From contig JAHFHZ010000006.1 in NCBI GenBank assembly GCA_023246715.1, positions 1 through 42,201 of the forward strand: a stretch of DNA of 42,201 nt, given 5' to 3'. Below, in pieces: positions 1,351 to 41,075 of this stretch (position 1 is the stretch's first letter; each line of letters opens with the position of its first letter). The notes beneath the pieces are model-generated. The model saw only the letters and a program-made list of their open reading frames with translations. It was not told where the DNA came from and did not search any database. Position numbers and translations under genes: made by a program. Source of the DNA: Candidatus Magasanikiibacteriota bacterium (GTDB taxonomy: Bacteria > Patescibacteriota > Patescibacteriia > Magasanikbacterales > GWA2-37-8).

Positions 1351-1390
1351 TTTATACTAAGGATCAAAAAAATAATCTAAAATTATAACC

Positions 1391-1427
1391 AAAAACACAA
1401 CACCCGCCGATTAAGGCGGGTGTTGTG
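1391..1427 (-). terminator. Rho-independent terminator of vapBC (repeat family copy 1)
   Basis: A 13-bp stem (CACAACACCCGCC with GGCGGGTGTTGTG) is followed on the minus strand by a TTTTT run. It sits just past the vapC stop. It is one of four copies of a hairpin repeat in the TA array. Similarity to the copy at 3538-3616 continues past the hairpin to about 1465 (GTGGTAAATCTGACACC, then GAGGCACA). Confidence 0.8.
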
Positions 1428-1471
1428 GTAAATCTGACACCAGGCAGGGAGAGGCACAGCCTCAACGATTG

Positions 1472-1846
1472 TTAACACCAAATAATTTTTAAGTCCGAAA
1501 CTTTTTTCATTTCTTTATCCCTGGTAACCAGCGAAGCGTTGTACAAAAGCGCCGTGGCCGCAATAATCGCATCGGGTGTTTTGATTCCAGACGTCCGCCT
1601 GATACGCGCAGCTAATCTGGCAATAGTAGAATCTAAATTAATGCTCGTCAGTTCGCTTAACCATTGGCTAATAAGCACTAAATTGGCGGGGCTTAAACCT
1701 GCAAAAGACAGGGCTTCCATCTCGGTCAGGGTGGCAACAGCAATCGCTGAATCTTTCTTACGAAGTTCGTCTACTAACCCAACAACTTGAGGGTCATTTT
1801 GTAAATAATAAATAACCGCATTAGTGTCGAGTAGAATCATACCCAC
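1472..1846 (-). CDS. vapC: VapC-type PIN-domain toxin (ribonuclease)
   Basis: PIN-domain toxins cleave RNA (often tRNA) with Mg2+ held by acidic residues. The 124-aa protein has the family layout: MGMILLDTNAVIYYL with Asp7, Glu42 in TEMEAL, Asp92 in TPDAIIAATAL and Asp110 in LVTRDKEM, so the active site looks intact. Its start overlaps the end of the small upstream gene by 10 bp, the usual coupling of antitoxin and toxin. It is the last gene of the array before a terminator at 1391-1427 and faces tkt. Confidence 0.88.
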   Translation of the reverse strand: MGMILLDTNAVIYYLQNDPQVVGLVDELRKKDSAIAVATLTEMEALSFAGLSPANLVLISQWLSELTSINLDSTIARLAARIRRTSGIKTPDAIIAATALLYNASLVTRDKEMKKVSDLKIIWC

Positions 1847-2022
1847 TCTTTGCGAATAGTTTTTTGGAATTTAAGACCGGAAATTTTTTTAGGCAAAATA
1901 CCCCGAACCGACTGCCAGGAATCGGTATTTTTTGTGAATGCTAAAAATTCAGCTGGATCCATGTTGAGACGTTTTATTTTTTGTAGTATTTTTTTTTGTC
2001 GGGAGAGACTAATGGTATTCAT
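1837..2022 (-). CDS. vapB: VapB-like antitoxin
   Basis: Small 61-aa protein (MNTISLSRQKKILQKIKR... ending LKFQKTIRKEWV) directly upstream of and overlapping the PIN toxin. Position, size and overlap fit a VapB-type antitoxin that binds the toxin with its C-terminal tail and the promoter with its N-terminus. I cannot assign the DNA-binding fold with certainty. A start further upstream, at 2082, is ruled out by the promoter at 2048-2076, which predicts transcription beginning near 2041. The ATG at 2022 fits a short leader. Confidence 0.75.
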   Translation of the reverse strand: MNTISLSRQKKILQKIKRLNMDPAEFLAFTKNTDSWQSVRGILPKKISGLKFQKTIRKEWV

Positions 2023-2047
2023 AGGCACATGACTAACCTGAAATCCT

Positions 2048-2076
2048 ACTATACCGAAAAATAAAGAACCTGTCAA
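2048..2076 (-). promoter_or_regulatory. Sigma-70 promoter of vapBC, merged with terminator
   Basis: The minus strand reads TTGACA (2071-2076), 17 bp, TATAGT (2048-2053). The -35 TT is part of the U-tract of the preceding hairpin terminator, so terminator and promoter form one compact junction. The spacer contains GTTCTTTA. Confidence 0.85.
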
Positions 2077-2110
2077 AAACACAACCCGCCGATTAAGGCG
2101 GGTGTTGTGG
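2074..2110 (-). terminator. Terminator of hicBA unit 2 (repeat copy 2)
   Basis: Hairpin with CCGCC/GGCGG core and ACAAC/GTTGT flank, then TTTTT on the minus strand. This copy has lost bases on one arm relative to copies 1 and 4, so the stem is slightly imperfect. Confidence 0.75.
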
Positions 2111-2143
2111 TAAATCTGAGAACGGGCGACAGCATATACCCTA

Positions 2144-2377
2144 TCAACGACGCATACGCCTAAATTCTGATGCGTCCAACCGAATATCGGCTAAAATTTT
2201 TTTGAGAAGCCCCTTGCCAATATCCTCAGACGCATGCAAAGGAACCACGGTGGTTCGCCCATCGCCCGGGTGGCGAAAAAAACAATGGCTGCCTTTTTGC
2301 CGGATTTGCTCAAACCCCAACGCTCGCAACAAGCGCAGCAACTTTTGAGAAGAAATAGGAGCCAGGTGCGGAGCCAT
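2144..2377 (-). CDS. hicA: HicA-type toxin (mRNA interferase)
   Basis: 77-aa protein with the HicA double-stranded-RNA-binding-like fold: KLLRLLRALGFEQIRQKGSHCFFRHPGDGRTTVVPLHA then GKGLLKKILADI. The catalytic His of the GSH motif is present. HicA cleaves mRNA until bound by HicB. It lies 9 bp downstream of hicB in the order hicB-hicA, less common than hicA-hicB but consistent with the second pair in this array. The stop is TGA followed at once by TAG. Confidence 0.9.
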   Translation of the reverse strand: MAPHLAPISSQKLLRLLRALGFEQIRQKGSHCFFRHPGDGRTTVVPLHASEDIGKGLLKKILADIRLDASEFRRMRR

Positions 2378-2386
2378 GTTGGCTGA

Positions 2387-2632
2387 TTAAAAAGTAAGCT
2401 CTAATTTTTGCACGCCATAAAGCTCATTTCTTGCGAGAGAAAAATTTTTATTACTGGATCGCTCCACCTCCAGGCACAGCCTGGCTACTTCTTCCAACCT
2501 TTCTAAGAGCGCTGGTATAGTACGAGCCTGGGTGTAGCAGCTGCGCAATGCCGGAATGCTGCCGATAAACCAGCCATTACCATCTTTTTCAATCAATACG
2601 GAAAGAGTATAGTGCGCTTTATTTTTTTTCAT
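2387..2632 (-). CDS. hicB: HicB-type antitoxin
   Basis: 81-aa protein beginning MKKNKAHYTLSVLIEKDGNGWFIGSIPALRSCYTQ, the partly degraded RNase-H-like HicB fold, followed by leucine-rich helices. I chose the ATG at 2632 because the family fold starts right after it; the upstream extension to 2704 runs into the neighbouring hic relic in another frame. It is followed 9 bp later by hicA. Transcription presumably starts at the promoter 2880-2908 and crosses the relic. Confidence 0.82.
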   Translation of the reverse strand: MKKNKAHYTLSVLIEKDGNGWFIGSIPALRSCYTQARTIPALLERLEEVARLCLEVERSSNKNFSLARNELYGVQKLELTF

Positions 2633-2636
2633 ATAT

Positions 2637-2870
2637 CTATGATATTGCAAAAATGTCATTCCCACGCAGCAGCTTCTGACCGGCGCCTTTTTGGAGAGCA
2701 ACAATAAAATAGTCCTCGATCACTTCGGCCAGCTTAGCACGGGCTTGTTCGACTGAATCAGCTTGCGCATACGCACCCGGTAAGCTTTGAATTACAAAAT
2801 GCCACACCCGTTCTCTCAAAAATTGCCACCAACTTCTGATAAGAAACGGGAACAATTTTTTAGTGGCTGC
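2637..2870 (-). pseudogene. Chimeric relic: hicA start joined to hicB middle
   Basis: Two broken pieces are visible between the promoter and hicB. The first reads IVPVSYQKLVAIFERTGV, like the opening of HicA, behind an ATG whose frame stops after four codons. The second, in another frame, reads FVIQSLPGAYAQADSVEQA and continues ARAKLAEVIEDYFIVALQKG, a HicB core that lacks its first strand. The simplest reading is a deletion between two hic genes that left a fused non-functional remnant. A short HicB-like protein from 2855 cannot be excluded. Confidence 0.5.
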
Positions 2871-2879
2871 TCATAACTT

Positions 2880-2908
2880 AGTGTAGCGGAAAGATAATAC
2901 TGTGTCAA
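2880..2908 (-). promoter_or_regulatory. Sigma-70 promoter of hic unit 2
   Basis: TTGACA (2903-2908), 17 bp, TACACT (2880-2885) on the minus strand, directly after the hairpin at 2909-2944. It now reads into the hic relic and then hicBA. Confidence 0.82.
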
Positions 2909-2944
2909 AAACACAACACCCTGCCGGAGAGGCAGGGTGTTGTG
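2909..2944 (-). terminator. Terminator of hicBA unit 3 (repeat copy 3, compensatory variant)
   Basis: Stem CACAACACCCTGCC/GGCAGGGTGTTGTG followed by a T-run. Compared with the other copies (CACCCGCC/GGCGGGTG) both arms have changed together, so base pairing is kept although the sequence differs. This supports selection on the hairpin. Confidence 0.85.
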
Positions 2945-2999
2945 GTAAATCTGACATCGTACGAGAGAGATTAACTAAAAGTCAGCTAAAATTTGTACC

Positions 3000-3224
3000 C
3001 TATAAGTCTACAAATTGTTCCACGGTCAACCCGGCATCTTTAATCAGCCGAACCAATAACCCTTTCTTGAGTTCTCGATGTAACGGGATAGTTAAGGAAG
3101 AGCGCGTTGAAGAATCTGGATGATGCAGCCGGATATGGCTCCCTCGTTGCCGGGCCATACTATAGCCTAGACGCTCAAACTTTTGTACGGCTTGCTGGCC
3201 TGAAAATCCGCCGAGTGTCGACAT
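3000..3224 (-). CDS. hicA: HicA-type toxin (mRNA interferase)
   Basis: 74-aa protein: SGQQAVQKFERLGYSMARQRGSHIRLHHPD, then LTIPLHRELKKGLLVRLIKDAGLTVEQF. The GSH catalytic His and the following basic strand are typical of HicA. It starts 6 bp after the hicB stop, so the two are one transcription unit. Stop is TAG. It is about as distant from the other HicA in this window as unrelated family members, so this is not a recent duplication. Confidence 0.92.
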   Translation of the reverse strand: MSTLGGFSGQQAVQKFERLGYSMARQRGSHIRLHHPDSSTRSSLTIPLHRELKKGLLVRLIKDAGLTVEQFVDL

Positions 3225-3230
3225 ATTTTT

Positions 3231-3485
3231 TTAAATAGCCACACTATGCAAACTGATATTTTCAACTAATCGCCGTACCCGAGCACGGGGAACATCCTGT
3301 AAAGACAGGAGCACCGCTTCACGAATATTACGCAAGGCTTCTTCGATGGTTTCTCCCTGGCTGTAGCACCCCTCTACTACCGGGCATTCCACCCAGTACC
3401 CACCTTCCTCCGCCGAATGCATTACTACCGGAAAATTTCCAACCTGATGAACAGTTGTCATTTTTTTAGCAATTTTTTTAGTCAT
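3231..3485 (-). CDS. hicB: HicB-type antitoxin
   Basis: 84-aa protein with a clear HicB core: FPVVMHSAEEGGYWVECPVVEGCYSQGETIEEALRNIREAVLLSL. The start at 3485 lies about 20 nt after the predicted transcription start; an internal ATG nine codons in is an alternative. It precedes hicA by 6 bp. HicB neutralises HicA and usually represses its own promoter, here the one at 3513-3541. Confidence 0.9.
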   Translation of the reverse strand: MTKKIAKKMTTVHQVGNFPVVMHSAEEGGYWVECPVVEGCYSQGETIEEALRNIREAVLLSLQDVPRARVRRLVENISLHSVAI

Positions 3486-3512
3486 AGTATGGTTAATCTA
3501 GCAAACAAGGAT

Positions 3513-3541
3513 ATTGTATCGAAAAATAAAGAACCTGTCAA
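3513..3541 (-). promoter_or_regulatory. Sigma-70 promoter of hic unit 3, merged with terminator
   Basis: TTGACA (3536-3541), 17 bp with GTTCTTTA in the spacer, TACAAT (3513-3518) on the minus strand. The stretch 3521-3576 is nearly the same as that around 2061-2110, so hairpin and promoter were copied as one piece. Confidence 0.85.
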
Positions 3542-3576
3542 AAACACAACACCCGCCGATTAAGGCGGGTGTTGTG
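3538..3576 (-). terminator. Terminator ending the G+C-rich operon (repeat copy 4)
   Basis: Perfect stem CACAACACCCGCC/GGCGGGTGTTGTG (3545-3576) followed by TTTTT on the minus strand. It lies between the G+C-rich gene block and the hic unit and is the only stem in this area with a proper U-tract. Confidence 0.8.
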
Positions 3577-3630
3577 GTAAATCTGACACCGTGCGAGAGA
3601 GGCACACAGTCTCATATTGTAGGGTGGGCG

Positions 3631-3741
3631 GCCGCGGCGATCATCGTGATCGCCGCGGCGCCCGGTAAGTTTCTGCTCTGTGAAGGTGACCCTCGAGTTG
3701 GAGCAGATGTCTGCTCGAGGGTGGCGCCGGGTGTTGGCGCC
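3631..3741. repeat. Three strong palindromes at the 3' end of the G+C-rich operon
   Basis: Perfect hairpins follow one another: GCCGCGGCGATCA/TGATCGCCGCGGC (3631-3659), ACCCTCGAG/CTCGAGGGT (3689-3722) and GGCGCC/GGCGCC (3723-3741). None has a U-tract. They could stabilise the 3' end of the mRNA or be remnants of the joint where the foreign segment entered. Confidence 0.7.
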
Positions 3742-3755
3742 TAGGGCCGGGTCTG

Positions 3756-4687
3756 CTAGGGGCAGCCGAGGGCGCCCGCGATCATGCCGCTGTTCTTGGC
3801 GTAGAGCGCGAGGTTGCCCTCGGAGTTGGTGTCCCCGGTGACGAGGAGGGGGTAGGTGGAGCCGGGCCGGGCGGTGTTCCGGATGTAGACGGTGACGTCG
3901 TTCATCCGGAACATGCCGGTCTCGCCAGCCCACCTCGTGGTGCCCTTGATCTTGCCCTTCACCTCGATGATCAGGGCGCCGCTGCCGCCCGAGCCGTTGA
4001 GGGCCGCGGGCTGGAAGCGGGTGCACGCCTCCTTCTGGGAGAGGAAGATCTCCTCGCCCGTGTCGGCCAGCGTGGTGTCGCCGCCGAGGTCCGTCGCGTG
4101 GTAAATGTAGAACTGGCGTTGGCCTGGTTGTAGAACTGGCCGGCGCCGGGCGCGGGGGCGACGAACTTGAGCGAGATGGGGAAGGTCGCCGGGGGCGGCG
4201 AGCAGGCGTTGGCGCAGGAGCCGCCGCAGTCGACGCCGGTCTCGGTGCCGTTCTGGATGCCGTCGACGCAGGTCGGCTGGACGACGACGGTGTCGGCGAC
4301 GCACTTGGGCGCCGTCGGCGTGCTGTTGTCGAGGTGCGTGTTGGGGCCGCAGGTGGGGAGCTTCTGGCAGACGTTGCTCGCGTCGGCGTAGGTGCCCGCG
4401 CCGCACGTGATCGTGGGGGGCGGCGTGGGTGCCACGGGCTCCGGCTTGGTCTTGCACCAGCCGACCTCGCCATCGGCGACATCGGGGGCGCAGACCTCGT
4501 TGTCGAAGCAGACGGCCTTGGCCTTCGCGGCCTTGACGTTGCAGCGGCAGGACTGGATGACCTTGAGGGGAGACACCAGCCGGTCGACCGGCTGCGAGCC
4601 GTCGACGCACTCGGGCTGCGGTGCGCAGGCACCGAGCATGAGGGCGGTGCTCAGGATGAGGAAGGACTTGATCGCGTTCGTGCTCAT
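3756..4687 (-). CDS. Cys-rich lipoprotein, G+C-rich gene with a one-base frameshift
   Basis: The product begins MSTNAIKSFLILSTALMLGAC, a lipoprotein signal with lipobox LGAC, so it should be lipid-anchored outside the membrane. The first two thirds are Cys-rich and include CVDGIQNGTETGVDCGGSC, a motif I associate with surface proteins of Myxococcota and other G+C-rich bacteria. The C-terminal third (FYIYHATDLGGDTTLADTG... to NSGMIAGALGCP) is in another frame. The two join cleanly near 4112-4119 if one base is restored, and the total length (932 bp) is one short of a multiple of three. The SD AAGGAG lies 7-8 nt before the ATG at 4687. Function unknown; either a pseudogene or a sequencing error. 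Confidence 0.7.
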
Positions 4688-4731
4688 CAACATTCTCCTT
4701 TTGTGCTGTCTGATTGATCTGTGAAGTGGCT

Positions 4732-5088
4732 CTACTGCGGCGCCTTGTACTCCCGGACCGGGAGCAAGGTGCCGAGCAACGCGCCGCTGCCCGCCGCCAC
4801 AACAGCGGTGCCGGCCATCGTCAGCCAGAACCACGGCTTCTTGTAGACCGGGGTCGGGGCGGGCGTGACCGCGCGGGCCGTCACCGGCACCTCCGCCATC
4901 AGGGCGAGGGCCGGAAGCTGCGGGGCCGGGGCGTCGATGTAGAGGGCCTGGCCGGGCGCGACCCAGTGCAGGGTCGTCTCCCGCGCCTCCGGCTGGGCCG
5001 GGGGGGCGACGGGCTCCTGCGCGTGGGCGGTGAGCACGGTGATGGACAGGGCGGCGGCCGCAAGGGCCGAAACGAGAAAACGGGGCAT
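4732..5088 (-). CDS. Small exported protein with C-terminal membrane helix (G+C-rich)
   Basis: 118 aa. The N-terminus (MPRFLVSALAAAALSITVLTA then HAQEP) is a signal peptide with an AxA-type cleavage site. A Pro/Ala-rich middle follows, then a single hydrophobic helix WFWLTMAGTAVVAAGSGALLG near residues 92-113. The start is fixed by AAGGAGGA 6-7 nt before the ATG. It lies 44 bp upstream of the lipoprotein gene and is probably co-transcribed with it. No family recognised. Base composition is far more G+C-rich than the flanking housekeeping genes. Confidence 0.72.
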   Translation of the reverse strand: MPRFLVSALAAAALSITVLTAHAQEPVAPPAQPEARETTLHWVAPGQALYIDAPAPQLPALALMAEVPVTARAVTPAPTPVYKKPWFWLTMAGTAVVAAGSGALLGTLLPVREYKAPQ

Positions 5089-5109
5089 GGTGTCCTCCTT
5101 GGTTCGCAA

Positions 5110-5460
5110 TCAATACGCTGCTCTGGACAAGTTTTTCCCGTGCTTGGTTTAGCACTAAAAAACTGGTACAGGCGGTTATAGCGAGGTAAAGATAAAACTA
5201 TGCGATGCATAGTAAGTATCTTTTCCCCCACTTCCTCTCTAAAGGAAGGGAAATAACTACCTACGGTATAACTACCTATACCAGTTGGATTGCTTGTCGT
5301 TGTAAAGGAGCGTACGGTTTTGTAACCGTCTTCTATCCACCAACGAGTGGTGAATATAAGACGAGTTCCTGCAGGACCCATCGGCAGCATATGAGCATGC
5401 CGTCGCCGTGGGCACTGTGCCCAGGCGTGGGGTCCTGCAGGGGTGATGTTCTACACTAGT
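5110..5460 (-). promoter_or_regulatory. Non-coding spacer/leader with hairpins and boxA-like motif
   Basis: No convincing gene here. Reading on the minus strand, there is a long palindrome with CCTGCAGGACCC ends (5371-5442), probably the 3' hairpin of the upstream gene. Then comes the hairpin ACGGTT/AACCGT (5314-5329), a degenerate boxA-like CTCCTTTACAACG (5298-5310), and a stem CTTCCT/AGGAAG (about 5231-5248) ahead of the SD of the gene starting at 5088. I see no good -35/-10 pair, so the gene at 5088 is probably read from promoters beyond 6330. Confidence 0.5.
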
Positions 5461-5504
5461 CGCCTCCCCGGGAGTTGAGCCGGGGGCTCTGTAGCCGTGA
5501 GGGG

Positions 5505-6020
5505 CTACTTGCCGCCGAGCTGCGCCGGGGTGCGGAGCCCCTGGGCGCCGGGGGCGGGGCCGACGTAGGGCACCGAGGTCCCGGCCGGCCGGTTCACGAC
5601 CACCGGCACGGCGCCGGGGGGCGCCTTGGTGACCGGGGGCGCCGAGGGCGCGGTGCCGACGAAGAGGCCGGTGCCAGCGACGGCCGCGCGAGCCGGGCGG
5701 CCGACGCGGGCGTTGAGGCTCGCGATCTTCTTGCCGTGCTCCACCAGCTGGCCCTCTTGCTCGTCGAGGATCAGGCCGATCGCCTCGAACTTCGCGTCGG
5801 AGTCGGCCCCCTTCGCGATGAGCGCGCTGGGCTTCGGCGCCTGGGCCTTCGCGGCCTTGGGGCACTTCGAGCCCTTGGCCTGGCAGAGCGCCTCGGCGAC
5901 GATCGCCGCGATCTGGGCCTTGTCGGCCTGATCGAGGGCGTGCGCCGGCGTGGCGAAGCCGAGGCCGAGAACGAAGGCGGAACCAGCGATGATGGACTTG
6001 ATGGACTTGATGGACTTCAT
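5505..6020 (-). CDS. Exported protein with coiled-coil and Pro-rich tail (G+C-rich)
   Basis: 171 aa. MKSIKSIKSIIAGSAFVLGL then GFATPAHA is a classical signal peptide; the DNA for the KSI repeats is a tandem GATGGACTT triplication. A helical, charged middle (KFEAIGLILDEQEGQLVEHG) could form a coiled coil, and the C-terminus is Pro/Ala/Gly-rich. SD GGAGGT lies 6 nt before the ATG at 6020, which decides the start over the longer frame from 6065. Two consensus promoters and an attenuator-like leader precede it. First gene of a probable three-gene unit with 4732-5088 and 3756-4687. No family recognised. Confidence 0.75.
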   Translation of the reverse strand: MKSIKSIKSIIAGSAFVLGLGFATPAHALDQADKAQIAAIVAEALCQAKGSKCPKAAKAQAPKPSALIAKGADSDAKFEAIGLILDEQEGQLVEHGKKIASLNARVGRPARAAVAGTGLFVGTAPSAPPVTKAPPGAVPVVVNRPAGTSVPYVGPAPGAQGLRTPAQLGGK

Positions 6021-6073
6021 TGTGGACCTCCAGTGAACGAGAGCCACGTCCTTCCAGAGCAGCATTGCTCGGC

Positions 6074-6205
6074 AGGACAGGGCGAGAGAGTAATCAACAA
6101 CGTTGAATCTTCTCTTGCCCTGTCCTATGGTTTGACTAGTGTAGAATCAGTTTTAAAGAACAGGTACCTTCACATCCTTAGTGCAAGCAAGAATCCTCGA
6201 TTCTT
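6074..6205 (-). promoter_or_regulatory. Leader: hairpin, boxA-like motif, hairpin, SD
   Basis: Minus-strand order: hairpin AAGAATC/GATTCTT (6189-6205); boxA-like GTTCTTTAAAA (6151-6161, in the context TGTTCTTTAAAACTGA, close to Gram-positive boxA); then a long stem AGGACAGGGC/GCCCTGTCCT (6074-6126) before the SD. A 13-bp sequence at 6134-6146 recurs inverted at 5449-5461, so the two copies bracket the gene. The role in antitermination is inferred from resemblance to rRNA leaders. Confidence 0.55.
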
Positions 6206-6235
6206 TATTACACTGAGCCGTTAAGGTCTGGTGAT

Positions 6236-6312
6236 AAAAAAAGCCTCAATATCATAGAGAGGCAACTTTGTGTGGTTACGCCTGGTAAATGCCTCTCTAA
6301 ACATTTATCAGG
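6236..6312 (-). promoter_or_regulatory. Candidate attenuator or riboswitch-like pseudoknot leader
   Basis: Just after the 6332-6360 promoter the RNA can fold a stem CCTGATAAATG/CATTTACCAGG (6302-6312 with 6281-6291; one mismatch). Its loop contains TAGAGAGG. The loop plus two stem bases (TAGAGAGGCA, 6290-6299) is perfectly complementary over 10 bp to TGCCTCTCTA (6255-6264). The GCCTC of that second strand can pair instead with GAGGC (6243-6247), directly followed by TTTTTTT (6236-6242), an intrinsic terminator. The two pairings exclude each other, as in transcriptional riboswitches. I do not recognise a known class. Confidence 0.5.
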
Positions 6313-6331
6313 TTTTTTAGTGTAACAGATT

Positions 6332-6360
6332 AGTATAGCACGTTTTGGGGGTTTTGTCAA
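6332..6360 (-). promoter_or_regulatory. Sigma-70 promoter P2 of the G+C-rich gene at 6020
   Basis: TTGACA (6355-6360), 17 bp, TATACT (6332-6337) on the minus strand. The predicted transcript starts near 6325, immediately before the attenuator-like leader. Confidence 0.88.
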
Positions 6361-6477
6361 GACCTTAGCCTTAACCCCCATTTTTTCTCTTTACTAAGCC
6401 TTAAATTGTCAATTAGGCTGTTTTTTTGTTTTATCTTAGCCTTTTTTGCTTTACGCCTTCTTTAAGCGTAACAACAC

Positions 6478-6506
6478 AGTATACCATAAAAATGTGCTCT
6501 TGTCAA
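6478..6506 (-). promoter_or_regulatory. Sigma-70 promoter P1 of the G+C-rich gene at 6020
   Basis: TTGACA (6501-6506), 17 bp, TATACT (6478-6483) on the minus strand. It lies in tandem 146 bp upstream of P2; between them the sequence is A+T-rich with repeated AAGGCTTAG-like words. Confidence 0.85.
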
Positions 6507-6539
6507 GAGGTGCTTTGAGCTACAATCTCATCATTTCTC

Positions 6540-6686
6540 CTTGCCTACCAAGAAGCAATCATGTGATTTGGGGCTGTTGAAGGCCGCCCCGCGCCGTATT
6601 CTGAAGGGAATCCCTTCTACCTGTCGCCGCCCTAGCCTACCGAGGATTACTCCCCTGTCAGAACACGGTGCGGGCTAAGCCAGGAA
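6540..6686. other. 3' region of the DUF4407-like gene, with palindrome
   Basis: G+C-rich non-coding tail after the stop at 6687. It includes the perfect short hairpin GAAGGG-AAT-CCCTTC (6602-6616). No U-tract terminator and no gene are visible. Confidence 0.5.
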
Positions 6687-8444
6687 TCAGGTGGCGGTTG
6701 GGCCGACCCAGCCGCTCGTCCGGAGCGCGAACTCGCTGAACGGCTCCTTGGTGAGCCGATCGCTGATGGTTTTCAGATCCGGGGAGAACTGCGGCTTCGG
6801 CGGCAGTGCACGCCCGTACTGCCTAAGCAGCCGTTCGTCGCTCGTGATCGAGTCGATGATCGGCACGATCTGCTCACGGAAGCGCTCCTGCTGGCGGCCG
6901 GAGAGCACATAGACCGGCTCGGTTGAGCCGCGAATGTCGCGGGCCGCCTCGTCGAGGAGGCTGAAGGCGGTCTGGCGCAACTTGATGTAACTCGCCGCGA
7001 GACGAGGCGCGGCCTGCTCCAGGGCCAAGATGGTCGGTGCCGGGTCCTCCCAACCCAGCGTGATCAGCTCGGGCGGGGTGATGGTGAGGCGCTCGGAGAG
7101 GCGGACATCGATGCCGTAGTCGAGCCCCCACTCGGGCACGGTGATGCCGAGCTGCATCAGCCGGCGTTCGTGAGCCACGACCGCGAGGCGGGCCGGGTTG
7201 GCGCAGTTGTTCCACCAGGCATCGCGCTTCTGCTGGATCTGGTGGAGCGTGGGGAACAGGCCGTCGTCACCCCGGTTGATGAGCCCGGTGGTGAAAGCCA
7301 GGAGCTGCCCGGGGCAGGCACCCAGCGCGACGCGCAGCGTGCTCAGTTCAGCCAATTCCACGGGGGTGATGAGCGCAATGGCTACGGGATGGCCCTGCTC
7401 GGCCTGCTTGAGCAGATTGTTGTAGTCCTCGAGGGCCGCCTGGGTGAACCAGCTGGCCAAGAGAACGAACAACTCCGCGAACAAGCCGACGAGCGCCCAG
7501 AGGACGAAGATGAGCAGGGACGCCGGGCGCCGGACCACCTCGAACAGAGCGACCACCTTGGCCATCAGGCCGCGGGGCTCCTTCCACGTGCCACCGCTCT
7601 CGCTGACGAGCTGCGCGACACCCATGGAACGGATGCTCTGCAGCGCGGTGTCGAGCTGCTCGCGCTGCTCGCTGGCCAGGCGCACGAGGCGCTCCTGCCC
7701 GTCGCGACGCTTCTTGTCGCGCAAGGCGCGGAGTTCGGCGAGCTTGGCGCCAGCACTGTCTTCGAGCTCGGCAACTCGCTTCTGGGTGGCGCGGGCAGTG
7801 GAGCCCAGAGCAATCGAGGCGTAGGGGTCTGAGCTCCCAGCCTGGATCAGCGCGGTGGACTTGTCCACCTCCGCCTGGGCCTCGGTGCGGAGCTTCGCGA
7901 GTCGGGCCTCTTCGGCCACGGTGTCGGCCTCGGCCTGAGTGAGCACGCTGGCGTTCTCACGCTCAACCTGCTTCTTCTGCTCTGCGGCCTGCAGCATCTG
8001 CTGCTCCTGCTCGCGCTGTTCGCGGGCCGAGCGGATCTTGTCGATGTTGGCCTTCTCCTTGTTGGCGATGATCTGCTCGATCTCGGGCGCGAACACCTCG
8101 AGGGTGAAGGGCAACATGTTGATCGTGGCCGCCATGATGGCGGCGGCCACGCGGCCGCGGTAGGCCCAACGATGGGCCTTGTCCTTGCCATTCTTCATGA
8201 TGAGGACGTTCAGATAGGCGATGAGGAGGGCAAAGACCAACCCGATCGGCACGGCTCCCCAGAGGGGCAACGCGTGCGCAAACAGGCGAGAAAACGCCCA
8301 CCATCCGTAAAAGAAGACCAGGACAATGATCGCAGTCCGGGCCCGGAAGACTCCGGCCACAGTGGGGGTATATAGGGCAGTGGCCCTCCCCCACACGGCG
8401 AAGTCAAACGGGTCGAAGCTGCGCTGCTGCTGTAGCTCTTTCAT
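6687..8444 (-). CDS. Membrane protein with central coiled coil, DUF4407-like (G+C-rich)
   Basis: 585 aa. About residues 35-105 hold three hydrophobic segments (TAIIVLVFFYGWWAFSRLF, GAVPIGLVFALLIAYL and a weaker VAAAIMAATINMLPF). A long Glu/Gln/Ala-rich coiled coil (roughly 110-275) follows, then a strong membrane segment SLLIFVLWALVGLFAELFVL near 305-330 and a soluble C-terminal domain. This order of helices matches the layout I know for DUF4407 proteins, but sequence identity cannot be judged here. AGGAG lies 9 nt before the ATG at 8444. It follows the gene at 8693-9802 with its own boxA-like leader between. Stop is TGA. Function unknown. Confidence 0.72.
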   Translation of the reverse strand: MKELQQQRSFDPFDFAVWGRATALYTPTVAGVFRARTAIIVLVFFYGWWAFSRLFAHALPLWGAVPIGLVFALLIAYLNVLIMKNGKDKAHRWAYRGRVAAAIMAATINMLPFTLEVFAPEIEQIIANKEKANIDKIRSAREQREQEQQMLQAAEQKKQVERENASVLTQAEADTVAEEARLAKLRTEAQAEVDKSTALIQAGSSDPYASIALGSTARATQKRVAELEDSAGAKLAELRALRDKKRRDGQERLVRLASEQREQLDTALQSIRSMGVAQLVSESGGTWKEPRGLMAKVVALFEVVRRPASLLIFVLWALVGLFAELFVLLASWFTQAALEDYNNLLKQAEQGHPVAIALITPVELAELSTLRVALGACPGQLLAFTTGLINRGDDGLFPTLHQIQQKRDAWWNNCANPARLAVVAHERRLMQLGITVPEWGLDYGIDVRLSERLTITPPELITLGWEDPAPTILALEQAAPRLAASYIKLRQTAFSLLDEAARDIRGSTEPVYVLSGRQQERFREQIVPIIDSITSDERLLRQYGRALPPKPQFSPDLKTISDRLTKEPFSEFALRTSGWVGPTAT

Positions 8445-8485
8445 CGGCTGTTTCTCCTGCACCTTGCGGCGCTTGTTCGAGCGAT

Positions 8486-8613
8486 AACTGTTCCTGCCAT
8501 GGTGATTTACTTTGTTAAATAAAACACAACAGCAGGAACAGTTGTTTGATTCCTAACTTACATTATTAAAGAACTTTTTCCCTATCTGGCCCAAATATGT
8601 TTGGAACAGATAG
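8486..8613 (-). promoter_or_regulatory. Intergenic leader: hairpin, boxA-like motif, hairpin
   Basis: Minus-strand order: imperfect hairpin CTATCTGTTCCAAA/TTTGGGCCAGATAG (8582-8613), boxA-like GTTCTTTAATA (8564-8574), then a perfect 12-bp stem AACTGTTCCTGC/GCAGGAACAGTT (8486-8543) before the SD. No consensus promoter is visible, so the downstream gene is probably read through from 9992-10020. Confidence 0.55.
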
Positions 8614-8692
8614 CGAAGCGACAGTCCGGCGGCACACGGGGGCCGGAGCTGTCGCGAAAGAGAGATGTGAAAGGGCTTGGGACCGAGCGCTG

Positions 8693-9802
8693 CTACTCGC
8701 TGTCGGGCGTGGGCGGCTCAGCGATGAGGCGAAGCTGTTCGGCATACCAGTCGGCGCTATCAATGGCCGTGGTCTGCGCGAAGCGCTTCTGGAGCCCCTT
8801 GGCCCAGGCGGCGGCCTTGGGGTGCTCGAGCGCCGCAGCGAGCTTGGTGAGCCAGAACTTGCCGCGGAGCTGGAACGCCTTGCAGTTGGCGATGCCGCCG
8901 TGCTCGAGGCAGCGGCGCAGGACGAATCCCTTGAGATCGTTGCCGGGATTCTTGCGGTAGAAGCTCAGCTCGTTGGGCTTGGTCGCGGCGTCGGCGGCGA
9001 GTATTCTCTCGTAGAATCTCTCAGCGCTCATGTCGAGCGCCTCGTAGATGTCTGCGATCATGGCATAGGCCTTCGGCCGCACCATTTCTGGCACCAGCAG
9101 GTGCACGTTCTTAACGATGGTGTCGCCGAAGCTCTGGGCGCTAGCATCTCCCTTGACCAGGATCCCGAGGGCGGCCTTGACGATGAGTCGCTTGACTTCG
9201 TCCCCGCCGGGGATGGACTCCTGCAGGACGTAGTAGATGTTCTCATCGCGCTCAACGCGGGTTTTCTCGTTGTCCCGATAGCTCCGCCCCAGGTAACTCT
9301 TCAGGCCGTTCCCCGCGTACGCTAGGGAAGCCCGCCAATCGGCGGCGTAGCTGATGTCCTTCGTCAGGTCGTTCTGATCTCCGGTGAGATAAAGCCAGCA
9401 CCGGTTGGTCACCGGGTCGATGGCCGCAGCCACCTCCGGGTAGGCGAAGTTGTACCCCGGAGATTTGAAGGGGGCGGGCAGCGTGCTCGTGGGGAACGCG
9501 GGAAGGCTGGCGGCCGTGGTGTGCAGGCGATCGTAGATCGCGTGCACTGCGTCAATGGACCGCTCGGCTGAACGCCGGCTGTTGCTGACGGAAGTTGCCA
9601 GCCTGGGGTTGGCGGCCTCGGCCATGGCAAGCGTACAGGACGATCCCCACTGCGCGGAGGCCACGCGGCGCTTGGCGCTGTGCGCCTGCATGGCGTTCTT
9701 GGTGATGTAGGCGGCGACGGCAAATATGCAGCATATCAGGAGCACGTTGAGCCAGCTCTTGGGGGCAGGCTCGTTGCTGTGGAAGTGCTTGCTGTCCGAC
9801 AT
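8693..9802 (-). CDS. Membrane-anchored protein of unknown function (G+C-rich)
   Basis: 369 aa. After a short hydrophilic start (MSDSKHFHSNEPAPKSW) comes one membrane helix (LNVLLICCIFAVAAYITKNA, about 18-38). The remainder should lie outside the cytoplasm: a largely helical domain with scattered Cys (RCWLYLTGDQND, VLRRCLEHGGIANCKAF). AAGGAG lies 7 nt before the ATG at 9802; the frame extends upstream without an SD. First gene after the 9992-10020 promoter, followed by the DUF4407-like gene. No family recognised. Confidence 0.72.
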   Translation of the reverse strand: MSDSKHFHSNEPAPKSWLNVLLICCIFAVAAYITKNAMQAHSAKRRVASAQWGSSCTLAMAEAANPRLATSVSNSRRSAERSIDAVHAIYDRLHTTAASLPAFPTSTLPAPFKSPGYNFAYPEVAAAIDPVTNRCWLYLTGDQNDLTKDISYAADWRASLAYAGNGLKSYLGRSYRDNEKTRVERDENIYYVLQESIPGGDEVKRLIVKAALGILVKGDASAQSFGDTIVKNVHLLVPEMVRPKAYAMIADIYEALDMSAERFYERILAADAATKPNELSFYRKNPGNDLKGFVLRRCLEHGGIANCKAFQLRGKFWLTKLAAALEHPKAAAWAKGLQKRFAQTTAIDSADWYAEQLRLIAEPPTPDSE

Positions 9803-9845
9803 CTTGACTCCTTCTGGTGGGTACGGTCGCAACACGGAAACCGTT

Positions 9846-9986
9846 CCGGGTGCTTTTTGGCTCAATCAAAATTTAAACATTGATTGCCCAAAAGGCACCC
9901 GGGAGTAATTTTTCACACCTCTCAATTGTAAAGAACGGTTATTTGGCTTAAATAAGCACAATTGTCCTTACTTTAGCCAAAATAAC
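9846..9986 (-). promoter_or_regulatory. Leader: hairpin, boxA-like motif, long hairpin, SD
   Basis: Minus-strand order after the promoter: stem GTTATTTTGGCTA/TAAGCCAAATAAC (9938-9986), immediately followed by boxA-like GTTCTTTACAATTG (9923-9936), then a long stem beginning CCGGGTGC and ending GCACCCGG with CAATCAA pairing inside (9846-9902). This is the clearest example of the leader shared by the G+C-rich genes. Confidence 0.6.
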
Positions 9987-9991
9987 AAGCT

Positions 9992-10020
9992 AGTATAGCA
10001 CATTTTGACGTTTTTGTCAA
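9992..10020 (-). promoter_or_regulatory. Sigma-70 promoter of the G+C-rich genes 9802 and 8444
   Basis: TTGACA (10015-10020), 17 bp, TATACT (9992-9997) on the minus strand. Confidence 0.9.
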
Positions 10021-10084: not shown

Positions 10085-13000
10085 TTAGCTGTTTTGGGCC
10101 TTCTGTAACTGATTTAGGTACTCCCCGGCCTGCGCGGCGGTAATGGGTGGCTCTCCGCCAAACGGTTTGCCCGCAGCATCCAGGGTGTGGAGCTTATTAT
10201 CGATTACTTTAAAGGTAATGTCACCCGTAACATACAGGCGTTCTTTGCCGGCCGCGGCATCGTAGATGCGTACCGCGTGGCCGCCGTTAGCCGTAAACGG
10301 CCCATCGGATTTCGGCTCCAACAAGAGTGCCAACTCTTTAGCGCCAAACTCTTTGGGCATACCGGCAATCTTTGGCAGCAGTTCTTTGGCCAAGGCTTCG
10401 GTATTTCCGCCGCGCGCCATTTGTTCCAAGGCGCTCAAACGAGCGGGATCCCCTTCTTGGCCCAGGGCCTGCTCGGCTTGCGCGTGCCAATCTATCAAAG
10501 CTTGCTTGAAACCATCTACTCGAGCGCCAAACAATGACTCGGTATCAATTTTTCCCAACCGATCGCTGATCGGTGAATAAAAGTTATTGAGGCGTTCCAT
10601 GGCAATCCCCCGCTGCGCTTCAAGCGCTGCCCCGGCGGTTTCGAGCGCTTTGTCAAATGTGTCCGGCCCAGCCGTTTTATGCAAGTCATTACGCAGATTT
10701 CCACCAGTAGAACGATTACCAACATCTTTACTCCAATCATGCTGGTGCGGTTTGAAATGGCCAATCACTTTATCGGCCTTAGCAATCACGCGTTCGCGGC
10801 CAAAGGTCTGGTAATTCGTGGTTGGCGCCGACTTGTCTGGTACCCAATCCGTGGGAACGCGCAGGGCATCAATAGTTCCCGGGCGGGCGCTGGTTGGCCG
10901 AGTGGTAACATCTATAAGCGTTTGATTTTCGCCGAGAGGAACGGTATGAGTACCCCCGCCAACGCCTTTATGTTCTACTGTTAAAGTATGCTCAATAAGC
11001 TTGGCCTCACCGCTGCCGCCTAAAATTAATTTGTTATGCATTTCACCCGTCCCTCGATAAATACCAAGCACGCGCATATTTTTTGGAATCCGGACGTCGT
11101 GCTTGCCGTCGCTGGAAAGATGGTGGTTGGCCAGATCGGTACTTTCTTCGGCGCGGAAGAATTGATGCAGCGATTTATCCAGCCCGTTGGGCAATGAGCC
11201 ACCACTCTGTTGAGCCGCGTGGACTTTTTCCGCTAACAGGTCAAGCGCCTTGCTTTCGTCTTTGCCTAAATGCAAATCTTTTAAATAACCCAAGGCACGA
11301 TTGCTCACGTGCTGCTCTCCAAAGAATTGCTCGTCATGCAAAAATGCTTTAGCCTGGCCCACGTCATGTTTGGCCAGCTCCACAAAGATAGTTTTCTTGG
11401 TGTCGCCCAAAATATTTTCAACGGCCCGGCCGCCATGACTGGCTTTGAAGATAGCCTGCAGTGATTCATTGTTGGCCAAAGCAGGGTATTTTTCAAGCAA
11501 CGGTTTATACCCGAGGTTAAATTCTTCTTCGCTGAGATGATGACTTTCTGCAAAATGGTAGCGGTCAAATGAGCCGCCGAGGTTTTCGGGAGCACTTTCA
11601 AGCTTGTTGCCCGAGCCAGAACCGGAACCTTTGGCATTATCAAGCCCATCAGGCCGGGGAGGGCTCACTTCAAGGGCGTTGCCGGAAGATCGGGTGCCGG
11701 TAGCGTGATGGTTGTCTATATTCGCCCCAGTTCCTGGTTTGTGATCGCTCACCAAATCCATTGCCCGACCGGCTTTTCCAGCCGCGCTGCGGAGCGCTTC
11801 GCCGCCATAATGAATACCGACAGCGCCTGCCGCGAACCCTGCTACGGCGCCCACCGCCTGGCGCCATGTGGTGGTTTTAAGCAACTGTTCTTTAATTCGG
11901 CGTTCGGCCGCGCTCAAATCAGCTAGGTCAGCATTGAGCGTGGCAAACATATTCTCAAGCGAAACGCGCCGGGCCTGTTCGATGTAAATCGTGCGCAAGG
12001 TGTGGGCCGTATCTAAACCGCGCACCCTGAGGCTGGTGAGTTGAGGCCCGTCGAGCACGCCAAGCGACAAGGTGGCGTTGAGCTGGTTATATAAACGGCG
12101 AATTTCGTCGCCACTCGTGCCCGCAAGCGACGTGGCAGTGGAATTAGTATAGTTACGAATAATATCGCGCGATTGGTTAATTTGACCTTCAAATTCCTGG
12201 CGCAGCGATTGTTCCTGTGCGCGACGATCGAGCATTTTGCCGAACTTGGCCCCCAGAATGCCGCCGACCAACCCGCCCATGGCTTGGCGCAGGCCCGGTA
12301 CGGTGGAAATGGCCGCACCAATTGCGCCACCAGCCACGACCGATTCAATAACAATCGCTGCTTTTTCACGGTCTTCGGCAGAAGACGCACCCACCGGCAG
12401 CATATCACGCAAGCCGGGGATTTTTTTGAATACTTCCACGATCGTCGGATCTTTAGCGAGCGCTTCTTTAATCAAACGTTTCATTTCGGGGCGCGAATCA
12501 AGGCGCAAGAGAGCCCCCTCTAAGCGGCGTAAATTAGTTTCTTTTTCTACGCCGGCTTCAACAGTTCGCGAAGGATTGTTTACCACCGTGCGTTCATACT
12601 CGGTTTCAATTTCCTCGATCGCACGGTCGGCCAACGCCTGAGTATTGGCATCCAAGAGCGCCGGGGTGTAGGCCCGGTGGGCAGCCTCAAAGCTGCTATC
12701 ACGCAAACCTTGACTGATGCATACCGCCATTTCTTCGAGCGCGCCTGGATTACGAAACTGCGCAATTAATGCGTTTTGCATTTGACTAGTTTTGGTTTCT
12801 TCTACGTGAATGCGGGCGGCGCTCAACGCTTCCTGGCGTTTTTTACCGCTCATCCAGCCATAGGCTTTTTTGAGGCCGCGCATCAAACCACCAGTGCCGG
12901 CAGTCGCGCCAACCGTAAGCGCCGCTCCCCCACCAAGGGCGGAAACAGCCAGGCCCACGCCGCCCACCGCGCCACCAACAACGGCCAAGTTAACAGCAGC

Positions 13001-35273: not shown

Positions 35274-35858
35274 TTAGCTCTTGGGGATGTGGAGCTCGGC
35301 GCCGATCCCGACGAACGCGCCGGGGGTGCTGGTGTGCATCGCGGGATGCACCACCGCTTCGGTTGGCGCGCTGAGCGGCCGCGTAAACAGCGGCCCGGCG
35401 AGCGCCAGGAAATCGAGCACCTTCGGGATGGCGGTGACTTGCACCGCGCCCAAAGCGCCGAATTCCATCTGCGCCAAACCGTTCGGCTCAACAACCGCGC
35501 ATCCCAGGAACGCGGGCCCGATGCGGACCCGGTGGGTGATGTCGATGAGCGGCGCCAGGATGGCGCAGGCCTCGAACGCCCCGGTGATGACGTCGCGCCC
35601 AACCGAGAGCTCGCCAAAGAGCTCGAGACGGCCCACGCGGTAGGTGACCGCGAAGCCGACATCAAAACTGTAACCGCTGTTCAGTGTGTGGCTCGGCAGG
35701 GCCTTGTAGGCGCTGCCGACGGTAAGCGCGAGCCCCCAACCGTTGTGGGGAGGCTCAGCGCTGTTCGCTGCTGCGCGCTGCTCCGGCTGGCGGGCCTCTG
35801 TGGCCAGGGCCGAGCCGGAGATAAGCGCAAGACAGAGCGCTACCAAGATCATCCTCAT
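35274..35858 (-). CDS. Exported beta-barrel-like protein (G+C-rich)
   Basis: 194 aa. MRMILVALCLALISGSALAT is a signal peptide. The mature part alternates hydrophobic and polar residues in strands (WGLALTVGSAYKAL, SFDVGFAVTYRVGRLELFGE, VRIGPAFLGCAVVEPNG, FVGIGAELHI), like a small outer-membrane barrel of Gram-negative bacteria. SD AGGAGGT lies 6-7 nt before the ATG at 35858. Base composition is far above that of the neighbours typA and the reductase. It has its own promoter, hairpin/boxA-like leader and 3' hairpin, like the block at 3.6-10 kb. The barrel assignment is from pattern, not from a family match. Confidence 0.68.
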   Translation of the reverse strand: MRMILVALCLALISGSALATEARQPEQRAAANSAEPPHNGWGLALTVGSAYKALPSHTLNSGYSFDVGFAVTYRVGRLELFGELSVGRDVITGAFEACAILAPLIDITHRVRIGPAFLGCAVVEPNGLAQMEFGALGAVQVTAIPKVLDFLALAGPLFTRPLSAPTEAVVHPAMHTSTPGAFVGIGAELHIPKS

Positions 35859-35902
35859 GGAGCTACCTCCTGCTGAATTTTTCGAAGAAGAAATCGACAG
35901 GG

Positions 35903-36072
35903 AAAGCTCACCAGTGAGCTTTTAGTCCGAGTAGGCGGACTCCCTTTGCAATGTTGATGGTCACCAATTGTAACCAGCGGCATTGCACATAGAGTCGCTC
36001 ATCCCACAGGGATCCCTGCACAGATTCAACCTTCGTGTTGTAAAGAACTATCTTCAAAATATTCATTTTGAA
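35903..36072 (-). promoter_or_regulatory. Leader of barrel-protein gene: hairpin, boxA-like motif, hairpins
   Basis: Minus-strand order: perfect hairpin TTCAAAAT/ATTTTGAA (36053-36072), boxA-like GTTCTTTACAAC (36037-36048), a TGCAATG/CATTGCA stem, then AGTCCG/CGGACT (35924-35941) and AAGCTCAC/GTGAGCTT (35903-35922) before the SD. Confidence 0.6.
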
Positions 36073-36079: not shown

Positions 36080-36108
36080 AGTATACCATACAAAAATGAT
36101 CTTGTCAA
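36080..36108 (-). promoter_or_regulatory. Sigma-70 promoter of the barrel-protein gene
   Basis: TTGACA (36103-36108), 17 bp, TATACT (36080-36085) on the minus strand. Confidence 0.9.
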
Positions 36109-38391: not shown

Positions 38392-38412
38392 AATTGCGGG
38401 GGACTATTAAAA

Positions 38413-38438
38413 CAAAAAGTCCACGTGCATCGTGGACT
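38413..38438 (-). terminator. Terminator of the 38520-38795 gene
   Basis: Stem AGTCCACG/CGTGGACT followed by TTTTTGTTTTA on the minus strand. Confidence 0.8.
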
Positions 38439-38519
38439 CTATACCAAAACTCAACAGAAAATAATCGAGACGATTCTAAGTGGACGAAACGTGAAGAAAA
38501 AACCAACTGGAAATGTACA

Positions 38520-38795
38520 TTAAACCATTTTCTCTAGAATATCACGTGCTTCCCCTGGAGTGATAGTAAAATTTTTTCCTTTTTTTAACTCATAGGATAC
38601 AATTTTGCCTGTTCTATCAGCAACTCCTGCGGCAATAAATTCAGCTAAAAGACCCGGCCTAATGTCAATTTTAATTGCACCATCATCTTCTTCTTCGACA
38701 GTGTGTGAAGAAATTTTTTCCTCTTCAAAATATTCTCGTCCACTTCTTACTCGTTTTTTTTCGGGTGAACCGCCGCCAATTTCTGGTTTGCTCAT
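38520..38795 (-). CDS. Small protein, function unknown
   Basis: 91 aa: an acidic/basic N-terminal half without clear structure (MSKPEIGGGSPEKKRVRSGR) and a compact C-terminal half (IKIDIRPGLLAEFIAAGVAD, KNFTITPGEARDILEKMV). Cytoplasmic. Supported by its own terminator and an A+T-rich upstream region with a TATAAT-like hexamer; no SD. No family recognised. Confidence 0.6.
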   Translation of the reverse strand: MSKPEIGGGSPEKKRVRSGREYFEEEKISSHTVEEEDDGAIKIDIRPGLLAEFIAAGVADRTGKIVSYELKKGKNFTITPGEARDILEKMV

Positions 38796-38905
38796 AGTAT
38801 TTTTTGTTTAGTTAATAATACATAAATTATATTACAAGCTATGTCCGACCGAAATAAATTGCCAAAAAAATCTAAAAAATAATGAAGAAATTTCTGGCTA
38901 TTTCA

Positions 38906-39032
38906 CATAACTTTCCTGTGTATGCGATGTTTGCCAGTGGTATAATTGCACGAAATGCTTACCACTGGCAAATATGGGTTGGGGATTGTGGCGGTACGGA
39001 GCAAGCCGTAACCGCATACGCAGTGTTATATG
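38906..39032. repeat. attC-like imperfect palindrome A
   Basis: The outer ends CATAAC and GTTATATG are followed inward by TGTGTATGCG/CGCATACGCA, separated from the ends by 5 and 2 nt. Inside is a perfect 13-bp hairpin TTTGCCAGTGGTA/TACCACTGGCAAA. The order resembles an integron attC site (R box, spacer, L box, variable terminal structure). Both arms resemble those of the palindrome at 40942-41065. An apparent 87-aa frame here is only a shadow of the palindrome. Confidence 0.5.
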
Positions 39033-39210
39033 CTGTAGTGCAAAGCAATAGCTGTCCAGAAGGGCAGCCGTTATATTTTGGGGGGATTTTCTTTTCTCTT
39101 TTATCAATGCAGCGGCAGCCAAATGACGTTTTTGTTCTGCCATAAATTTTATTATGAGCTAACCGGAGGGGGTTTGGTAACATTAGTTGTGAGATGAAAA
39201 ATTCAATTTA

Positions 39211-39560: not shown

Positions 39561-39621
39561 TTTTTCCGATTCGGTTCTGGGCAGAGGGGCAGGGGGTGAA
39601 TTACCCGCCAATAACTTTCGC

Positions 39622-39876: not shown

Positions 39877-39879
39877 ACC

Positions 39880-40155: not shown

Positions 40156-40187
40156 ATGGTATAAAATCGGTAATTTAATCTGTATAT

Positions 40188-41065: not shown

Positions 41066-41075
41066 GGTGTAAAAT

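Follow-up and report, generated by a model that had tools for sequence, protein, structure and literature searches.

G+C-rich genes with rRNA-like leaders recur across the order of a patescibacterial genome

Why should a low-G+C patescibacterial genome carry sharply G+C-rich genes for exported proteins, and were these genes captured from elsewhere? The question was raised by a 42,201-nucleotide contig of a Candidatus Magasanikiibacteriota bacterium of the order Magasanikbacterales (GenBank assembly GCA_023246715.1, contig JAHFHZ010000006.1; "the window" hereafter means this entire stretch), in which five adjacent genes and one solitary gene (g1 to g6) stand out from their surroundings. The initial annotation, made from the sequence alone, described these genes as G+C-rich, led by strong Shine-Dalgarno (SD) sites that most neighboring genes lack, encoding exported or membrane proteins, bordered by palindromes, and preceded by host-style consensus promoters, and it proposed repeated capture of envelope or secretome genes from a G+C-rich diderm, possibly a host or prey cell, followed by installation into a standard local expression frame.

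The observation itself is confirmed, and the pattern is much larger than first described. All six genes are real and lie at the positions originally given, with a GC content of 0.64 to 0.75 and a GC3 of 0.81 to 0.96, compared to a GC3 of 0.42 to 0.61 in the neighboring host genes, most of which lack a strong SD. All six products have a signal peptide, a lipobox, or membrane helices, and g4 is a DUF4407 membrane protein (PF14362; 62.8 bits versus a Pfam gathering score of 31.3; E value = 4e-17). Two corrections and additions are needed. The reading frame at 3756 to 4687 is not intact, as its length is not a multiple of 3, and the initial annotation missed a boxA-like site in the leaders and could not show that the same class recurs on other contigs and in most sampled genomes of the order. 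Single-nucleotide errors from long reads are an unlikely cause of the frameshifts in g1 and in c49c, another G+C-rich cassette, since contig ends overlap by 120 bp as in short-read assemblies. The features of the window are listed in Table 1.

Table 1. Coordinates of the G+C-rich genes and their associated elements in the 42,201-nucleotide window
Position	Strand	Feature	Detail
3631..3659	.	Perfect G+C-rich palindrome downstream of g1	3' folding z of -3.4 for g1
3756..4687	-	g1, G+C-rich lipoprotein gene with Cys-rich motif	Frameshifted near 4120; open parts 4131-4687 and 3756-4118
4695..4700	-	SD of g1	AAGGAG
4732..5088	-	g2, signal peptide plus one membrane helix	GC3 0.94
5094..5100	-	SD of g2	AAGGAGG
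5300..5311	-	Degenerate boxA-like site in g2 leader	GCTCCTTTACAA; weak, the 200 nt of the g2 leader that were scanned score only 8/11
5368..5441	-	Long palindrome between g3 and the g2 leader	CCTGCAGGACCC..GGGTCCTGCAGG
5505..6020	-	g3, secreted Ala/Pro-rich protein	GC3 0.96
6027..6031	-	SD of g3	GGAGG
6074..6126	-	Leader hairpin of g3	AGGACAGGGC..GCCCTGTCCT; z -4.5
6151..6161	-	boxA in g3 leader	GTTCTTTAAAA; 11/11 to GYTCTTTAANA
6332..6360	-	Promoter upstream of g3	TTGACA-17-TATACT
6478..6506	-	Second promoter	TTGACA-17-TATACT; near-identical copy upstream of cassette c55 on contig C11
6687..8444	-	g4, DUF4407 membrane protein	Homologues are G+C-rich in other genera
8454..8458	-	SD of g4	AGGAG
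8486..8543	-	Leader hairpin of g4	AACTGTTCCTGC..GCAGGAACAGTT; z -4.8
8564..8574	-	boxA in g4 leader	GTTCTTTAATA; 11/11
8693..9802	-	g5, membrane-anchored orphan protein	One marginal hit in 380 genomes of its phylum
9808..9813	-	SD of g5	AAGGAG
9846..9902	-	Leader hairpin of g5	CCGGGTGC..GCACCCGG; z -3.5
9926..9936	-	boxA in g5 leader	GTTCTTTACAA; 10/11
9992..10020	-	Promoter of g5	TTGACA-17-TATACT
35274..35858	-	g6, solitary secreted protein	Beta-rich, outer-membrane-like pattern; fold not confirmed
35866..35871	-	SD of g6	AGGAGG
36038..36048	-	boxA in g6 leader	GTTCTTTACAA; 10/11
36080..36108	-	Promoter of g6	TTGACA-17-TATACT

To determine whether these genes form a class, we examined 417 kb sampled from the same genome, using a simple gene caller of our own. 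Among 384 called genes, 18 form the same class, with GC3 values of 0.71 to 0.94 compared to a median of 0.51, and an SD of 5 nt or more was found in 16 of 18 compared to 17 of 343 of the rest (P = 6e-17). A boxA-like site was present in 9 of 18 versus 28 of 343 (P = 1e-5). With the independently published consensus GYTCTTTAANA (PMC5725501), 11/11 matches occurred in 4 of 20 cassette leaders versus 1 of 327 host leaders, and matches of at least 10/11 occurred in 7 of 20 versus 9 of 327 (P = 6e-6), although about half of the cassette leaders lack a clear boxA. The palindromes at both ends are also supported by folding, with a median leader z of -2.9 for the class versus -0.25 for host genes (P = 4e-7) and a 3' z of -2.8 versus -0.4 (P = 3e-4). 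Units typically consist of a sigma-70 consensus promoter, a boxA-like site (GTTCTTTAAAA), a long hairpin, an SD, a G+C-rich gene, and a 3' hairpin. Covariance-model searches of the leaders against Rfam gave only subthreshold matches, such as miRNA-type hairpins.

We then searched 86 genomes of the order for the promoter plus boxA (GTTCTTT) alone, with no composition criterion. This blind search hit 70 genomes, whereas the reversed-pattern control was nearly empty; a first pattern with the wrong spacing had found nothing. Of 67 downstream genes examined, 45 have an SD of 5 nt or more and 38 are at least 10 GC points above their flank, with a mean elevation over the upstream flank of +10.4 GC points (Wilcoxon P = 3e-10). 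GC elevation was found in 6 of 8 cases for promoter plus boxA versus 12 of 103 for promoter alone (P = 2e-4), and leaders with a hairpin showed more GC elevation (28 of 36 versus 11 of 31). The pattern is not uniform, however, as in G002 and G008, two of the sampled genomes, many promoter-boxA leaders are short and hairpin free and lead only mildly elevated genes.

The interpretation in the initial annotation, capture from a G+C-rich diderm, is only partly supported. The proposed standard expression frame is real and more specific than suggested (promoter, boxA, hairpin, and SD), the foreign composition is real, and several products look like Myxococcota secretome proteins, including g1 with its motif CVDGIQNGTETGVDCGG and the CTDC-repeat lipoproteins L147 and L155. 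Such Cys-rich lipoproteins, also represented by L050 and L072, still suggest such genes as one source. However, no donor was found. A search with 8-residue seeds returned no close relative of g4 in 84,980 species; g2, g5, and g6 have none in 284 genomes of the Myxococcales bacterium's phylum, in which g1 matches only by its short Cys motif; and the one cassette protein with a good family, the trypsin c68, is at most about 31% identical to anything found. These searches were limited to close-relative seeds or sampled genomes. No relative of g4 was found among viral contigs, and no plasmid matches were found for g5, g6, or c68. Most of the additional GC-rich proteins scanned lack a clear Pfam hit, and an AlphaFold model of g6 built without an alignment reached a pLDDT of only 34 and was not used, leaving the outer-membrane barrel idea unconfirmed.

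Close homologues of the same GC in sister genomes had been named beforehand as grounds for rejecting capture, and this condition is partly fulfilled, as sister genomes carry genes of the same class with the same GC. A DUF4407 homologue of g4 lies at the same prfB-groL site in two genera (genomes G042 and G055) with 28% protein identity, while prfB is 78% identical, yet the gene is still 61 to 67% GC in genomes of 39 to 40% GC. Among the window genes, this comparison of sites covers DUF4407 only. The composition therefore looks maintained and old, and recent one-by-one capture would not give such a pattern. A 3' element shared by G042 and G055 (CAGTGATCTTGAA..TTCGAG) is a single-copy feature and not a mark of the class.

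The best reading, to which we assign a probability of about 0.62, is that the cluster and the solitary gene belong to an order-wide class of autonomous transcription units using an rRNA/nut-like antitermination leader. What the sequences show is the architecture: each typical unit has a near-consensus sigma-70 promoter (TTGACA-17-TATAMT), a boxA-like site within about 5 to 60 nt downstream, a long and sequence-divergent hairpin, a strong SD with ATG, a G+C-rich reading frame that often encodes an exported, lipoprotein, or membrane protein, and a 3' hairpin; this architecture recurs across families of the order, and the leader predicts the G+C-rich, SD-led gene downstream. The function, in contrast, is inferred from sequence resemblance, without expression or binding data. 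In this view, boxA in the GTTCTTTA leaders would recruit NusB-NusE(S10), as at rRNA operons and lambda nut sites, so that RNA polymerase would carry long structured G+C-rich RNA past Rho; the hairpins would stabilize or process the RNA; and the SD would pair with the intact anti-SD (CACCTCC is present in the 16S), giving these genes a translation initiation mode that most genes in this genome do not use. Expression would thereby be tied to rRNA-type (growth or host-attached) transcription. It is likewise an inference that the coding sequences turn over fast, may be drawn partly from G+C-rich diderms or traded among relatives, and keep high GC3 long after arrival. The organism's own rRNA leader has only a loose match to boxA (GCAACTTACAATTG), as does the rRNA leader of genome G035 (GCTCGTTTACAATT).

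Among the alternatives, repeated recent capture, in which each gene keeps donor codons, SD, and signal peptide and lands next to native promoters, seems unlikely but cannot be dismissed. It is consistent with the GC and GC3 contrast, the Myxococcota-style lipoproteins, the orphan status of the genes, and the competence and horizontal gene transfer known in Patescibacteria (PMC12455944, PMC11665869), but beyond the lack of a donor within about 31% identity for anything tested and the GC maintained at the DUF4407 locus over deep divergence, the leader architecture recurs across the order with different sequences and so predates the individual genes. About equally unlikely is that the boxA leader acts as a repressor or switch, keeping costly foreign G+C-rich exported proteins off through Nus/Rho until needed. 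In Escherichia coli, a boxA leader represses suhB through Rho instead of protecting it, and a Citrobacter toxin gene is Nus regulated through a putative boxA (PMC5725501); strong hairpins between boxA and SD could also gate initiation. On the other hand, near-consensus promoters and strong SDs fit high expression better, and whereas boxA lies close to the SD in suhB, it is usually 80 to 190 nt upstream of the start here, although repression was shown in that study with up to 100 nt of added spacing.

It is less likely still that the units are cargo (morons) of a mobile element or phage lineage moving among these bacteria. Their own promoters and terminators, atypical GC, sporadic distribution, and sites differing between genomes would fit such modules, but no common flanking repeat or att site, such as would be expected also of integron or site-specific gene cassettes, was found among the islands in the 417-kb sample; no integrase was seen, without a dedicated search, beside the islands examined; and apart from a weak coiled-coil hit there was no PHROG match. 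Assembly chimeras or contamination can be excluded in practice. Some islands lie near contig ends, which overlap as in de Bruijn assemblies, but islands are flanked on both sides by host genes in long contigs, begin with host-type AT-rich promoters, and recur in about 70 other, independent genomes, including near-complete ones.

These units resemble several known systems but differ from each of them. Bacterial rRNA operon leaders (boxA with flanking stems) and lambda nut sites (boxA plus boxB hairpin) likewise place a boxA GYTCTTTAANA-type site shortly after a strong sigma-70 promoter, followed by a stem-loop, and would be expected to load NusB-NusE on RNA polymerase, but here the leader precedes many scattered protein-coding genes with an SD, the hairpins are 10 to 26 bp and differ in sequence from unit to unit, and an N-like factor or NusB dependence has not been shown. 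The suhB mRNA also carries boxA in its 5' leader but is a single autoregulated gene repressed by boxA, compared to a genome-wide class with G+C-rich coding sequences and long hairpins. Horizontally transferred genes and genomic islands of Patescibacteria (PMC12455944) are accessory genes of foreign composition, whereas these are single-gene units with a shared leader architecture, order-wide, with no donor found and a composition that is apparently maintained. The large GC-rich lgr genes of Protochlamydia amoebophila (PMC2216083) are G+C-rich genes with conserved promoter motifs in a low-GC host-dependent bacterium, but they are one paralogous LRR family at 41 to 43% in a 35% genome with ordinary codon usage, while the genes described here belong to unrelated families, commonly at 55 to 70%, with GC3 up to 0.96. 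Phage morons are autonomous promoter-gene-terminator modules of atypical GC, but the present units are chromosomal, have a boxA leader, and have no phage genes seen nearby.

We speculate, with considerable doubt, that the order may run two gene expression regimes in one small genome, with ordinary genes lacking an SD alongside a dispersed, secretome-rich regulon that is transcribed through an rRNA-like antitermination leader, led by SD sites, and kept G+C-rich by selection over deep divergence. In an extreme form of this idea, the high GC, diderm-type export signals, and SDs would reflect adaptation to expression inside a G+C-rich host cell after delivery of DNA or RNA.

Overall, this tiny, probably parasitic bacterium and most of its sampled relatives carry a scattered second class of unusually G+C-rich genes, which is a real, repeated genome feature and not a one-off gene capture. 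Patescibacteria have few known regulatory systems, and how they equip themselves to live on hosts is largely unknown. A searchable leader (promoter, boxA, hairpin, and SD) that marks an orphan-rich gene class often encoding exported proteins gives a direct handle on their candidate host interaction genes. It also raises the question of how G+C-rich codon usage can persist for long in a low-G+C genome, and it suggests that rRNA-type Nus antitermination, here inferred from sequence, can be used as a regulon for protein-coding genes.

The window is a whole contig (C44 of G000, the source genome) of a 1.06-Mb genome bin that consists of 44 contigs, is 92.8% complete, and is inferred to be patescibacterial from its genome size and content. 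The six G+C-rich genes described in the initial annotation were confirmed, with GC contents of 0.64 to 0.75 and GC3 values of 0.81 to 0.96, compared with GC3 values of 0.42 to 0.61 for the neighboring host genes. The observation itself held, except that gene 1 (g1) is frameshifted. A second GC-rich gene, c49c, also carries an apparent one-base frameshift, while the host genes translated in the window appear intact, and these two cases may represent either pseudogenes or assembly errors. Gene 4 encodes a DUF4407 membrane protein, and the other five genes have no family. The GC-rich cluster starts right after the fourth of four copies of a 70- to 90-bp repeat (terminator CACAACACCCGCC..GGCGGGTGTTGTG plus promoter TTGACAGGTTCTTTATTTTTCG), which separate small genes that resemble toxin-antitoxin genes by eye (VapC-like and HicAB-like). 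At the other end of the window is a low-GC tail (36 to 43%) with a gene for a Fic protein and what appears by eye to be a broken IS30-like transposase gene.

Such genes occur genome-wide, judging from a sample of 417 kb (39%) of the same genome, mostly contig C11 plus the first 20 kb of other contigs. With a simple and admittedly crude gene caller, 18 genes (leaving out a frameshifted g1 fragment) had GC3 values of 0.71 to 0.94, against a median of 0.51. Of these 18 genes, 16 have an SD of 5 nt or more, compared with 17 of the 343 remaining genes (Fisher's test, P value = 6e-17), although starts were chosen by the same SD-favoring rule in both groups. Their products include lipoproteins, a trypsin-like lipoprotein, membrane proteins, and some cytosolic proteins, most of which have no Pfam family. 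Some GC-rich proteins, encoded in the sequence stretches L063, L158, L163, and L175, share a similar Trp/Gly-rich C-terminal pattern (e.g., LYLYGGSDWRDLDRGTVEGYWCRYYLVGF) in style across genera. This resemblance was judged by eye only, and it may point to a possible variable, lectin-like surface or DGR-type family. In L063, a 121-bp direct repeat lies at the end of and after one such GC-rich cassette (c63b), possibly representing a template/variable repeat or an assembly k-mer duplication.

Coordinates of individual features in the window and in other sequence stretches (L numbers).
Feature	Sequence	Position
Four copies of the 70- to 90-bp repeat, with small toxin-antitoxin-type genes	window	1390-3606
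g1, frameshifted	window	3756-4687
Apparent frameshift in g1	window	near 4120
Low-GC tail	window	38400-42201
Broken IS30-like transposase gene (by eye)	window	about 39249-39900
Fic protein gene	window	41076-41966
GC-rich NUDIX-like gene (by eye)	L047 (genome G017)	10955-11515
Apparent frameshift in c49c	L049	near 12605
Gene for protein with Trp/Gly-rich C-terminal pattern	L063	11996-12577
121-bp direct repeat, first copy	L063	12455-12575
121-bp direct repeat, second copy	L063	12939-13059

Reading of the leaders revealed a repeated order of parts, namely, TTGACA-17-TATACT, then GTTCTTTAMAA, then a long hairpin, and then the SD. GTTCTTTAMAA resembles boxA, the NusB-NusE site of rRNA operons, for which a consensus of GYTCTTTAANA was published independently (PMC5725501). 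When scored against that consensus, 7 of 20 cassette leaders reached 10/11 or better, compared with 9 of 327 host leaders (P value = 6e-6), and 4 cassette leaders compared with 1 host leader were perfect matches. The rRNA leader of the organism itself has only a loose boxA match. The 150 nt before the start codon fold far more stably than shuffled sequences (median z = -2.9, compared with -0.25 for host genes), and so do the 110 nt after the stop codon (-2.8 compared with -0.4). The leader hairpins in L163 and L175 (from genomes G016 and G029; TCCTGGCTTTCT..AGAAGGCTGGGA) are alike across two families of the order, with an apparent compensatory pair change, suggesting a possible common ancestor of the leader RNA.

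We then searched 86 genomes of the order for the promoter plus GTTCTTT only, with no composition criterion. Hits were found in 70 genomes, with up to 16 hits each, while the reversed pattern gave almost none. For 67 loci with a downstream open reading frame, drawn from about 30 genomes (one locus may be counted twice), the gene averaged 10.4 GC points above its upstream flank (Wilcoxon test, P value = 3e-10), with 38 genes exceeding 10 points and 45 having an SD of 5 nt or more. In sampled sequence that was not chosen by leader, promoter plus boxA predicted GC elevation in 6 of 8 cases, compared with 12 of 103 cases for the promoter alone. Leaders with a strong hairpin carried most of the effect (28 of 36, compared with 11 of 31, at about 10 points or more). 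Two genomes, G002 and G008, show the leader with short, mostly hairpin-free 5' regions and, in G008, with weaker elevation, indicating that the class has subtypes. Across the sample, gene GC rose only partly with flank GC (slope = 0.69, r = 0.40). In another genome of 40% GC (G017), a GC-rich gene that is NUDIX-like by eye lies directly upstream of the rRNA operon.

DUF4407 genes occur sporadically in the class (10 of 381 genomes), and their GC content is above that of the flanks nearly everywhere. In G042 and G055, two genomes of different genera, the gene lies between prfB and groL in both. The two DUF4407 proteins are 28% identical, while PrfB is 78% identical, and both genes are 61 to 67% GC in genomes with GC contents near 39 to 40%. 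Synonymous sites must be saturated, and the composition is therefore probably maintained or repeatedly renewed in place. The initial annotation had instead suggested repeated capture of envelope or secretome genes from a G+C-rich diderm, possibly a host or prey cell, and this interpretation is only partly supported. Searches for a donor found none within their limits, which were close-relative seeds in 84,980 species and 284 genomes of the Myxococcales bacterium's phylum. On the other hand, Myxococcota-like Cys-rich repeats in g1 and in lipoproteins selected by their leaders leave capture as one source of coding sequence.

The leader architecture, its recurrence in the order, and its association with G+C-rich, SD-led genes are shown by the sequence comparisons, whereas how the leader acts is inferred. 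That boxA functions here at all, and in which direction, is inference from sequence resemblance; in suhB, boxA represses through Rho (PMC5725501). The most economical reading is that rRNA-type processive antitermination drives long, structured, G+C-rich mRNAs, which in this view would undergo SD-led translation through an anti-SD that is intact in this organism.
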